Assembly (NCBI GenBank): GCA_030533405.1
Contig: JAUNJF010000005.1
Coordinates: 97,447-137,014, forward strand
Reading direction: 5' to 3'
Source of the DNA: Eubacteriales bacterium
Lineage (GTDB): Bacteria; Bacillota; Clostridia; Lachnospirales; Lachnospiraceae
Length of the DNA stretch: 39,568 bases
This document shows, piece after piece, positions 1,111-16,089 of the stretch (the stretch's first letter is position 1; each line of letters begins with the position of its first letter). The translations under genes and the position numbers were made by a program. The notes under the pieces are model-generated. The model did no database searches. It was not told where the DNA came from and saw only the letters and a list, made by a program, of their open reading frames with translations.

Positions 1111-2472
1111 ATGTCTTATGTTGATGAGGTACTCGAGGTAGTACAGAAGAAGAACGCAGATCAGCCTGAATTTTTACAGGCAGTAACAGAGGTTTTAGAG
1201 TCATTAAGACCATGTATCGATGCAAATGAGGAGCTTTACAAGAAGAACGCAATTCTTGAGAGAATTACAGAGCCAGATCGTCAGATTATGTTCCGTGTTC
1301 CATGGGTAGATGACAATGGTCAGGTACAGGTTAACCGTGGTTTCCGTGTACAGTTCAACAATGCTATTGGACCTTACAAGGGAGGTTTAAGACTTCATCC
1401 TTCTGTAAACTTAGGTATCATCAAGTTCTTAGGTTTCGAGCAGATTTTCAAGAACTCTCTTACAACACTTCCAATTGGTGGTGGTAAAGGTGGTTCTGAT
1501 TTCGATCCTAAGGGTAAATCAGATAGAGAGATTATGGCATTCTGCCAGAGCTTCATGACAGAGCTTGGTAAGTACATTGGTGCTGATATTGACGTTCCAG
1601 CTGGTGATATCGGAACAGGTGCTCGTGAGATCGGTTTCATGTTCGGTCAGTACAAGAGAATTCAGGGAATGTTCGAAGGTGTTCTTACAGGTAAGGGACT
1701 TACTTGGGGTGGATCACTTGCTCGTACAGAAGCTACAGGATATGGTTTATTATACTTAACAAACGCTTTATGGAAAGATCATGGTATGAGTCTTGAAGGT
1801 AAGATCGCAACTGTTTCAGGTGCTGGTAACGTTGCTATTTATGCTATCCAGAAGGCACATCAGTTAGGTGCTAAGTGTGTAACTGTTTCAGATTCAACAG
1901 GTTGGATTTATGATCCAGAAGGAATTGACGTTGAGTTATTGAAAGAGGTTAAGGAAGTTAAGCGTGCTCGTTTATCTGAGTATGCTGCAGCTCGTCCATC
2001 AGCTGAGTATCATGAGAAGAAGAATGCTGATGATCATGGTGTATGGTCAATCAAGTGTGATTTAGCTCTTCCATGTGCTACACAGAACGAGTTAAACCTT
2101 GAGGATGCTAAGATGTTAGTTGCTAACGGCTGTAAGTCTGTAACAGAGGGTGCTAACATGCCTACAACATTAGATGCTACTAAGTATCTTCAGGAGCAGG
2201 GCGTATTATTCGTAGGTGGTAAGGCTGCTAACGCTGGTGGTGTTGCTACATCTGCACTTGAGATGAGCCAGAACTCTGAGAGACTTTCTTGGACATTTGA
2301 AGAGGTTGATGGAAAGCTTCAGAATATCATGGAGACAATCTACGCTAACATTTCAGATGCTGCTAAGAGATATAACATGACAATTGGTGGTAACGACGAT
2401 TACGTAGCTGGTGCTAATATCGCTGGTTTCGAGAAGGTTGTTAACGCTATGTTAGCTCAGGGTGTATGCTAA
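1111..2472 (+). CDS. gdhA: NADP-type glutamate dehydrogenase
   Basis: Reversible reductive amination of 2-oxoglutarate to glutamate; a main route of ammonia assimilation in clostridia. The protein has 453 residues, the usual length for the hexameric class. Start ATG 1111 follows AAGGAGG (1097-1103). Visible are the substrate-binding segment P-Y-K-G-G-L-R, the catalytic Lys126 in [16 protein letters not shown], the [13 protein letters not shown] motif with its catalytic Asp, and a Rossmann-like S-G-A-G-N-V-A segment. Codon choice is narrow, consistent with high expression. Oddity: the last eight codons (AMLAQGVC, stop) are duplicated 13.6 kb downstream as AMLVQGVCK, stop. The current 3' end was therefore probably supplied by an integrated element (see attL/attR), leaving the enzyme intact. 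Confidence 0.97.
2446..2469 (+). other. attL: left copy of the attachment core, within the end of gdhA
   Basis: Shares GCTATGTTAG and TCAGGGTGT with the copy at 16066-16089; the two mismatches are C/T at 2456 and A/T at 2466. If the crossover lies in the shared GCTATGT, everything to its right here, including the final gdhA codons and terminator, came from the element. Confidence 0.85.
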
Positions 2473-2524
2473 TTAGAAAAGTTAATTAGAATATTCACTT
2501 TGAATTGAATAATTAGAATTTATG

Positions 2525-2564
2525 GGAAGCCTTATAAACACTACGTTTATGGGGCTTTCTTTTT
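2525..2564 (+). terminator. Terminator after gdhA, probably element-borne
   Basis: Hairpin with arms around 2525-2539 and 2545-2559 (AAGCCTTATAAAC pairing with GTTTATGGGGCTT through G-T wobbles), followed by a TCTTTTTG run. It lies inside the integrated element, so the element appears to supply gdhA with a transcription stop. Confidence 0.8.
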
Positions 2565-2646
2565 GTTTAGAAAGGTCGATGAAATCATCTTTTTGAATTG
2601 TCAGAATTGTTTCTAATTTGATGATAATTTGACTAGATTTGAGGTC

Positions 2647-2690
2647 GTGATATACAAGTGATATACAGGTGGTATACGAGTGGTATACAC
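2647..2690 (+). repeat. Four tandem 11-bp repeats, candidate integrase arm sites (left)
   Basis: Units at 2647, 2658, 2669 and 2680: GTGATATACAA, GTGATATACAG, GTGGTATACGA, GTGGTATACAC. The same unit occurs twice in tandem at 16001-16022 inside the right end. The N-terminal domain of Tn916- and lambda-type integrases binds such short repeats flanking the core. To the right, 2706-2746 holds an inverted repeat ATACACTCA/TGAGTGTAT with no T run. Nothing else is visible between gdhA and the integrase gene. Confidence 0.75.
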
Positions 2691-2778
2691 ACATTTTTTA
2701 TATAAATACACTCATTGCCTTGCCGCTGTGAAAATAGTGAGTGTATAAATATCCTTGTACGTTGTTTGTATATTTTCA

Positions 2779-3840
2779 TTAAATCTTATTTACTTCTGTA
2801 AGAAGTTCTTCTAGTGTTTTGTGGGTATATGTACCCTTTGTAACATCATTTTTCATACTGTGTCCCATAATGAGTTTAATACATACTTCATTGGCACCTG
2901 CGCTGTCCATCAAGGATGCAAAGGTGTGTCTGCCATCATGGGGAAGATGCTGTAATCCAAGTTTACTCATGCAAGTGTTGAAGTTACCATTCATATAAGT
3001 TCCATAGGTGTAATGGTTCCCATACTTATTGTTGATTAGGAATTTACTGTTTGGATCATATCTTTTCTTGATAAGTGGTAGGATTTTCTCATTTATCGGA
3101 ATGGTACGACCGATTCCTGCATCTGTTTTCATACCACCAATCATATATTTTTCTTTGATATGCACATCTTCAGTTAGTATCTCCAACAACTCGGATGGTC
3201 TAAGACCTGTATAAATCATAATTAAAATGATGTCTACATTGTTGATGATGTAGAGCTTGTTCCATAGTAGGTCAATCTCTTCATCTGTATAGCGATCATG
3301 GATGGCTTCTGAACTTTGCGTCCATTCAAATACTAAGCCTTCAGTCATATCCTTTTCGATATAATCATTGTTCTTGGCATATTGATACATTCCACGAAGT
3401 AATGCACGCATATTGGATATGGTAGAGCGAGACTTTGTGTTATATTTGTTAAGACAATCCTGCAAATCATCCGCTCGTATGGAAATGAACTTCTTGTCAT
3501 GCAAATCACTAAAATGATTAAATGCAATTCCATAATTCTTCCATGCTGATTCGCTAATTTGATTCTTAAGGGATTTGCGATATGATTTCCATTTATTATA
3601 CATATCCGCAAAGGTGGGAGCGTCATTGTACGCAACATGCTCTGGAACTACAATCCCTTTGTTATAGTCCGCAAGAAAGGTGTAAGCAAGCTCTGGTTTG
3701 GCAAAATATCCAAGATATTTAAACTTGCGTCTTGGAACACCATTAGAATCATTTTCGATTCTAGAGATTCGTACTGCATAAGGTCGCCTTCGATTGCCAG
3801 AAAGCTTAATTACGCTCCCGTACGAGTTGGGCAATTTCAT
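2779..3840 (-). CDS. int: Tyrosine recombinase/integrase
   Basis: Site-specific recombinase expected to integrate and excise the element. The protein has 353 residues. The N-terminal part (about 1-70) is a basic arm-binding region, 75-165 is the SAM-like core-binding domain, and 180-353 the catalytic domain. Catalytic residues visible: Arg214 in T-G-L-R-P-S-E-L, His301 and Arg304 in L-P-H-D-G-R-H-T-F, His327 in M-G-H-S, and the nucleophile Tyr338 in G-T-Y-T-H. All are intact, so an active enzyme is expected. Its first 35 bases overlap the end of the upstream XRE regulator gene, suggesting co-transcription and linked control. It reads toward attL, the usual position for this family. No clear terminator is seen behind it. 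Confidence 0.95.
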   Translation of the reverse strand: MKLPNSYGSVIKLSGNRRRPYAVRISRIENDSNGVPRRKFKYLGYFAKPELAYTFLADYNKGIVVPEHVAYNDAPTFADMYNKWKSYRKSLKNQISESAWKNYGIAFNHFSDLHDKKFISIRADDLQDCLNKYNTKSRSTISNMRALLRGMYQYAKNNDYIEKDMTEGLVFEWTQSSEAIHDRYTDEEIDLLWNKLYIINNVDIILIMIYTGLRPSELLEILTEDVHIKEKYMIGGMKTDAGIGRTIPINEKILPLIKKRYDPNSKFLINNKYGNHYTYGTYMNGNFNTCMSKLGLQHLPHDGRHTFASLMDSAGANEVCIKLIMGHSMKNDVTKGTYTHKTLEELLTEVNKI

Positions 3841-15622: not shown

Positions 15623-15730
15623 CTAAGAAATAATTTATTCTTGTGTCGAATCTTGTTACATTATGCGATGACAAGAGACTGTTATATGTAGAATATAAGA
15701 AGTATAATGTTACAAAGGAGGATGAAAAGG

Positions 15731-15967
15731 ATGCAAACACATATTGAAGAACAAAATGAAAACTTTGAAGATGCTAGAACGAATATGAATGATTGGCTAG
15801 ACTGTTTTATAAAAGCGGATGATCAATATAAAGGAATGATAGCAAGAGAAGCATATCGGTTGTTTGTATTGAAGGCGCAAGGAAACCAAGAGCTGAACCA
15901 GATATTAACAGAGGCTATTCATTTAAAGGATACTTTGCAACAAATATTTGGTGGTCAAAATTGGTAG
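15731..15967 (+). CDS. Small hypothetical protein next to attR
   Basis: 78 residues, acidic and helical, Gln-rich near the C-terminus (D-T-L-Q-Q-I-F-G-G-Q-N-W); no family recognised. ATG 15731 was chosen because AAAGGAGG (15714-15721) stands 9 nt ahead; the frame extends to an ATG at 15707 that precedes the ribosome site. It ends 33 bp before the right-end integrase repeats. The position suggests an element maintenance or small regulatory gene, but nothing in the sequence says which. Confidence 0.6.
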   Translation: MQTHIEEQNENFEDARTNMNDWLDCFIKADDQYKGMIAREAYRLFVLKAQGNQELNQILTEAIHLKDTLQQIFGGQNW

Positions 15968-16000
15968 ATAATTTATTATAACCGAAATTATCTGACAATC

Positions 16001-16022
16001 GTGATACACACGTGATATACAA
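16001..16022 (+). repeat. Two tandem 11-bp repeats, candidate integrase arm sites (right)
   Basis: GTGATACACAC (16001-16011) and GTGATATACAA (16012-16022), in the same orientation as the left-end array. The second unit is identical to the first left-end unit. They lie about 30 bp inside the attachment palindrome. Confidence 0.75.
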
Positions 16023-16050
16023 ATCACACCTCAAATCCGGTATTTACGCC

Positions 16051-16085
16051 ACACCCTGAACTACAGCTATGTTAGTTCAGGGTGT
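16051..16085. other. 13-bp inverted repeat at the right recombination site
   Basis: ACACCCTGAACTA (16051-16063), 9-nt centre CAGCTATGT, TAGTTCAGGGTGT (16073-16085), a perfect match. The layout is that of two core-type integrase sites around a crossover region. The left arm is element DNA and the right arm host DNA. It may also act as a hairpin, but no T run follows. Confidence 0.7.
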
Positions 16086-16089
16086 TTGC
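16066..16089 (+). other. attR: right copy of the attachment core with the displaced gdhA 3' end
   Basis: Differs from 2446-2469 at two of 24 bases. In the gdhA frame it reads A-M-L-V-Q-G-V-C-K and then TAA TAA, which is a plausible original C-terminus of glutamate dehydrogenase. Confidence 0.85.

Follow-up and report, generated by a model that had tools for sequence, protein, structure and literature searches.

Probable integration of a defense-type genomic island at the 3′ end of gdhA through an island-encoded tyrosine integrase in a Lachnospiraceae bacterium

Results

Organization of the gdhA locus

We analyzed a 39,568-nucleotide stretch of DNA from a Eubacteriales bacterium of the Lachnospiraceae (the window; assembly GCA_030533405.1, contig JAUNJF010000005.1, positions 97,447–137,014 of the forward strand), in which an island of approximately 13.6 kb is found at the 3′ end of gdhA. 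The source assembly comprises 3.15 Mb in 94 contigs, and the window contains no N. The gdhA gene, encoding an NADP-type glutamate dehydrogenase, occupies positions 979–2472 on the plus strand (Pfam ELFV_dehydrog, E 1.2e-87). Its open reading frame begins at a TTG codon, and relatives align only from residue ~38–45 (window 979–1110 covers the preceding part); the real start is probably an inner ATG.

The terminal 24 coding bases of gdhA, GCTATGTTAGCTCAGGGTGTATGC (2446–2469), are repeated with two differences as GCTATGTTAGTTCAGGGTGTTTGC at 16066–16089, a start-to-start distance of 13,620 bases. A search pattern with the two variable positions left open and up to three mismatches allowed matched the window only at these two sites and gave no match in shuffled sequences (0/100). 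The island is flanked by direct repeats, one of which lies within the target gene. Read in the gdhA frame, the far copy encodes AMLVQGVCK-stop from 16066 onward, and the resident copy ends in LAQGVC-stop. The initial annotation, made from the DNA letters alone, had described this recurrence with two changes and both frame readings, and all of these are confirmed; the repeat pair and the island are real features of the sequence. The GC content is 38.2% to the left, 34.2% in the element, and 36.6% to the right. A search of the window for tRNA and tmRNA genes found none.

The left repeat (attL, 2446–2469, plus strand) starts with the putative core GCTATG (2446–2451). Judging from relatives described below, TTAGCTCAGGGTGTATGC and the stop codon after it would be element-derived. 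The right repeat belongs to attR (16066–16095, plus strand), which consists of the GCTATG core and what appears, by analogy with genome G445, to be the displaced and decayed host gdhA end (LVQGVCK-stop). Around this core, an inverted repeat with perfect 13-base arms (16051–16063 and 16073–16085) spans 16051–16085. Downstream of gdhA, an intrinsic terminator at 2524–2560 (plus strand, −22 kcal/mol, z −6.35) was the one hit of a search in which 0.2 was expected; it was probably brought by the element and now serves gdhA. Arm-type repeats are present at the left end (2647–2690, plus strand) as GTGATATACAA and degenerate copies with an 11-base step. Exact copies of GTGATATACAA occur in the window only at 2647 and 16012, and degenerate ones at 2658, 2669, 2680, and 16001. 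The repeat at 16012 lies in the element right end (15986–16065, plus strand), which is homologous to the right ends of the elements in G445 and G446.

The mobility genes are located at the left end. The tyrosine integrase gene (2779–3840, minus strand) matches Phage_integrase in Pfam (E 1.2e-16) and a PHROG family, and the catalytic residues R...K...HxxR...H...Y were recognized by eye. It is adjoined by a gene for a Cro/CI-like or RstR-like regulator (3806–4567, minus strand) with weak matches: Pfam below the cut-off, NCBIfam RstR with E 1.9e-6, far below its cut-off, and a PHROG transcriptional regulator with E 8e-12. An HTH_17 excisionase-like gene follows (4716–4904, plus strand; HTH_17 E 3e-6, NCBIfam "excise" only E 0.012) and is conserved next to integrase relatives. 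Profile matches and repeat positions agree with the placement of these three genes and the arm repeats in the initial annotation, and the integrase and excisionase-like gene are presumably active. The integrase shares the tyrosine recombinase catalytic part with the "Int protein" of PDB 6emy, which we take to be of the Tn1549 type. The two are distant (E 2e-6), and the island differs in having no conjugation genes among its 12 genes by Pfam.

Crossover position and exchanged gdhA ends

Comparison with relatives indicates which sequence belongs to the host. In G445, the gdhA body at attL reads FLKVAEAM followed by LAQGVC-stop, and at attR, where the element ends 16.4 kb further on, GCTATG is followed by MTAQGIV-type codons (AMTAQGIV) and a stop. 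Among 21 LKVA-type gdhA genes that are integrase-less, meaning that the fetched flanks of ~1.5 kb contain no integrase match, none ends in LAQGVC and 10 end in MTAQGIV. The tail at attR is thus of the native type, whereas LAQGVC ends none of these integrase-less genes, so the host end in G445 was displaced and the end of the element took its place. A GdhA body with the tail of another lineage occurs in two relatives, G445 and G086; the mixed gene of G086 is known from the near end alone, and the displaced native-type end is readable in G445. A hairpin similar to that at 2524–2560 is also present at attL of G445, so that terminators are found at both attL sites examined.

The pairwise identities change at the same point. 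Between G445, G446, and G454, the last 300 bases of gdhA are 69–73% identical, the six swapped codons 94–100%, and the next 100 bases 88–92%. The corresponding values for G445 and G449 are 84%, 67%, and 73%. None of the 844 integrase-less pairs with gdhA identity of 75% or less reaches 85% after the stop codon, the maximum being 71% (53 of 57 loci were used for the after-stop comparison). Upstream similarity tracks the host and downstream similarity tracks the element, which places the exchange inside GCTATG. On this basis, the host part of gdhA in the window would end at about 2451, with element sequence beyond. Among genes of the FL/FM/FR-KV type, LAQGVC ends occur in 2/7 that are occupied and 0/24 that are integrase-less (Fisher p 0.045), a weak difference uncorrected for kinship.

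Local alignment shows a clear relationship of both ends of the window element to the element ends in G445 and G446: the right end scored 31 and 27 against a maximum of 15 in 1000 control windows, and the left end 38 and 38 against a control maximum of 20. The segment to the right of GCTATG on the gdhA side, comprising the last codons, stop, and terminator, travels with the element, and the target gene is restored by element sequence, which supports the proposal of the initial annotation that the element brings its own C-terminus and terminator.

Integrase relatives at the same site

Relatives of the integrase were found at 10 loci in bacterial and archaeal genomes and 9 in viral contigs. Integrase relatives at E 1e-60 or better occur in 2/396 other genomes of the family (G244 and G086), and the other genomes of the genus have only a 40%-identical outsider, in G016 (1/25); the integrase family is uncommon in this sample. 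Among phage records, only integrases below 60% identity were found, with 34% at best among the matches listed, and a pattern scan of viral sequences for the G445-type left end found none. The record titles of the bacterial and archaeal matches are mostly those of Lachnospiraceae metagenome-assembled genomes and include Roseburia inulinivorans DSM 16841.

For 24 loci, the window among them, we inspected the sequence on the far side of the integrase (25 rows, of which L120 duplicates L043). Whether the same integrase adjoins gdhA elsewhere had been proposed as a check in the initial annotation; a gdhA-type end lies 140–325 bases from the integrase in 21/24 loci. In 12 of these 21, the preceding sequence is gdhA itself, giving attL. 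In the other nine, non-gdhA sequence precedes the end, forming phage-like joints in which an element right end is connected to the integrase side. These joints read either as attP, carried by a phage genome or a circle, or as a tandem array. The nine are not independent and amount to about three distinct sequences (L098–L102 and L106 are nearly the same, as are L104 and L105). The three misses are L038, whose contig stops 256 bases past the integrase, L095, which is the G016 outsider, and L142, a 19-residue remnant adjoining a gdhA whose GCG codon fell outside the search pattern.

Several of these loci show further arrangements. In R. inulinivorans (G451), the gdhA end and a second, element-type joint are 738 bases apart (L080, 65–88 and 827–850), a tandem insertion at gdhA with a right end joined to a left end. 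A right end is also joined to a left end in G450 (L082, 670–693), as a tandem or circular phage joint. Endolysin-type genes adjoin the far end or the joint in G447 and G450, so temperate phages use the gdhA site. In G447, attL and attR (L078 from 11084, L079 from 2865) are alike for ~100 bases, terminator included and well past the core, as if this phage had recently picked up the host gdhA end. The integrase in G453 is broken (L084, 11531–12448); by eye, its start side is overlapped by a frame resembling a transposase. Two gdhA loci with no detected integrase (L131 and L134) have element-like sequence after the stop, and decayed elements may be present undetected at this site.

The cargo also varies. 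The G445 element carries a phage replisome organizer, a two-component and ABC set, a DNA methylase, and PRTase-CE, ORC-CDC6-like, CARF-like, and ThyX genes, and that of G453 contains a fragment weakly matching the Dsr2, Avs5, and ThsA models. Defense-type cargo recurs at the gdhA site, in examples too few for a claim of enrichment.

Displaced end at attR and right flank

The displaced end LVQGVCK differs from all readable GdhA tails (67/67), in which AQG is kept and the stop comes two residues later; the survey covered 71 loci, of which 4 were unreadable since the pattern demands A-M before the tail. Two solved glutamate dehydrogenase sequences also align through AMLAQGV, and the far copy is intact in G445, G446, and G447. 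No terminator was found at 16000–16420, where only 0.1 would be expected by chance, and 16090–16200 folds no better than shuffled sequences. The simplest reading is that the displaced end drifted after insertion, because it would no longer be translated as a part of gdhA. The perfect 13-base inverted repeat at attR takes in the odd Val codon of the far copy, so that selection acting on integrase binding, or an older neighboring element, may have played a part. The repeat matches at 12/13 positions in the attP of the window (0/2000 shuffles) and at 13/13 in attR.

Conserved gdhA neighbors were observed in 4/6 relatives read, with no integrase there: genes from 24295 onward follow gdhA in G014, G015, G020, and G022. 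The stretch at 16.1–23.5 kb was not seen at gdhA in the relatives read. In 8 of the 25 other genus genomes, the right flank (16040–16900) has short matches only, all of them beyond its first 284 bases. The protein encoded at 16901–17611 was found in 2/26 genomes of the genus (its own and, as a 37% match, G017) and in 1/7 near relatives (its own).

Defense-type cargo

Twelve genes lie between the two repeats, and the nine beyond the mobility genes are all on the plus strand. A type I restriction-modification system is encoded in one locus by hsdM (methyltransferase, 5300–7129), hsdS (specificity subunit, 7126–8331), and hsdR (restriction subunit, 10033–13203), each supported by Pfam and PADLOC. 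Two additional genes are present between hsdS and hsdR (8334–10079). One encodes a small HEPN-like protein (8334–8888; Pfam E 0.028, below the cut-off), whose R-N-x-x-x-H motif is retained in both distant homologues found, and the other a DUF3800 protein, the PADLOC candidate PDC-S51 (8907–10079; Pfam, PADLOC). The 16-kb stretches around the two HEPN-like homologues contain no other gene of the window, the HEPN-like gene was not found in plasmids, and no DUF3800 relative was found in viral contigs. In the prr locus of Escherichia coli, an RNase gene is located between hsdS and hsdR inside a type I operon. The island is similar in lodging a putative RNase-type gene at this position and differs in that a small predicted HEPN-like protein plus DUF3800 is found there.

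HEC-02A, an AAA ATPase (13268–14293, PADLOC E 6e-120), and HEC-02B (14295–14810, PADLOC E 1e-45) are adjacent and form the candidate defense system HEC-02. HEC-02B carries DIIFVEVKTG, which by eye resembles a PD-(D/E)xK nuclease core. The adjoining protein (14855–15622) has no family match and looks like a membrane protein, its first two thirds being hydrophobic by eye; it is present in 2/397 family genomes, its own included, and may be a third member beside the HEC-02 pair. Family searches also gave no match for the last, 86-residue protein (15707–15967). The cargo, which includes predicted anti-phage genes, presumably protects against phages.

Pfam detected no relaxase or transfer gene of the kind that would mark an integrative conjugative element among the 12 genes, and no replication gene such as a phage-inducible chromosomal island would be expected to carry. 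Structural, packaging, and lysis genes, which would mark a prophage, were likewise absent from the 12 genes by Pfam and from the six scanned with PHROG.

Discussion

We conclude, with a probability of about 0.88, that the tyrosine integrase encoded on this genomic island inserted it at the 3′ end of gdhA, swapping the end of the gene. The defense element at this position postulated in the initial annotation gains support from the integrase relatives at the same gdhA site. The target, the crossover position, the swap, and the transported terminator are all shown by comparison among the relatives. In the mechanism we propose, the integrase would recombine the short core GCTATG, common to the element (attP) and gdhA (attB). 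To the right of the core, attP would carry gdhA-like codons in frame, closed by a stop and followed by a terminator. Insertion would replace the last six codons, stop, and terminator of the host with those of the element, leaving GdhA whole, and the host's own gdhA end would shift to the far junction, attR. If the displaced end has decayed, excision is predicted to leave a GdhA ending in LVQGVCK without the usual terminator.

Four observations weigh against this interpretation. Compared with G445, G446, and G454, the 100 bases after the stop in the window are only 60–62% identical, near the 95th percentile of integrase-less pairs (61%), although the local alignments described above are clear. 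No exact empty site for the right flank of this strain (16040–16900), the arrangement with gdhA directly followed by 16090 onward that the initial annotation proposed to seek, was found in the 25 other genomes of the genus. The window itself gives no direct sign of excision, attP-like joints being observed only in relatives. The core inverted repeat was tried as a hallmark of the family and rejected, since only 3/8 attP sequences stand out.

Alternatively, an older gdhA element could lie to the right, with the far copy as its left end; attR would then be a joint between two elements, and the true host end would be further on. Such tandem accretion has precedents in the right ends joined to integrase-side ends in R. 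inulinivorans and G450. It would also suit the absence of the 16.1–23.5 kb stretch from gdhA in relatives, the sequence at 16105–16265 (minus strand), which by eye reads partly like a broken Cro/CI-type regulator end and is perhaps a remnant of an older element, and the perfect match of the Val codon to the element's own inverted arm. However, the genes from 16417 on encode a sigma factor, a transporter, and others typical of a chromosome, and no integrase or terminator is found from 16089 to 16420, although the absence of a terminator says little with 0.1 expected. We regard this arrangement as unlikely. Somewhat less unlikely is that the island represents a prophage remnant or a defective satellite of phages and depends on a helper phage to move. 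In relatives, the site and integrase family are shared by phage-like contigs and endolysin genes, and the G445 element retains a phage replisome organizer; the lack of structural, packaging, lysis, and replication genes among the 12 (Pfam) or the six PHROG-scanned genes argues against it. That the repeat arose by chance or through a recombinational duplication of the gdhA end, and is not an integrase product, is highly improbable. The difference at 2/24 bases would fit, but this reading is contradicted by other genomes, where integrase relatives occupy these very bases of gdhA, and shuffled sequences yield no such repeat.

Insertion by the island's integrase with restoration of the target gene resembles known systems. 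The dusA-associated integrase islands and prophages, as described in the accessible part of PMC4482086, are located at the 5′ end of dusA in Proteobacteria, and their excision was detected by polymerase chain reaction. They share with the gdhA island the use of one protein-coding gene by one integrase family, the occurrence as islands and prophages with variable cargo, the imperfect direct repeats, and the supply of the replaced gene end by the element. The gdhA island differs in using the 3′ end and in its mostly Lachnospiraceae-labeled relatives, and is known from sequence alone. Islands at the 3′ end of guaA, according to the portion of PMC10383233 available, have a 15-bp target-site duplication; they likewise occupy the 3′ end of a metabolic gene with such a duplication, and the gene and integrase are different. 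The same portion also mentions gdhA, as the neighbor of an island that occupies the interval up to rplL and has a 7-bp repeat; the gene itself is not entered. According to the available text of PMC12884075, attP sites commonly complete the gene they enter, a principle shared with the gdhA island; gdhA is not mentioned in that text, nor in the accessible part of PMC6907783. Searches of the open-access literature found no paper in which gdhA serves as an attachment site, which is not proof of absence, the tables of island catalogues lying outside the search. The kind of island, with a protein-coding target restored, is thus known, and the gdhA target and integrase family appear to be its own.

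The locus represents a protein-coding docking site with an integrase family common to phages and islands with defense-type cargo. The named relatives are mostly gut Lachnospiraceae, for which the integrase could be a natural insertion tool. The displaced gene end is readable in several cases, making the history of each insertion traceable. More tentatively, the 3′ end of gdhA may be a standing dock through which GdhA tails are carried from lineage to lineage by phages and islands, and decay of the displaced tail by drift may have made the island the only source of a normal end and terminator in this strain. If so, excision would mis-end a central enzyme of nitrogen metabolism and hold the defense island in place, which leads to the testable prediction that such an island may become locked in when the displaced end decays.

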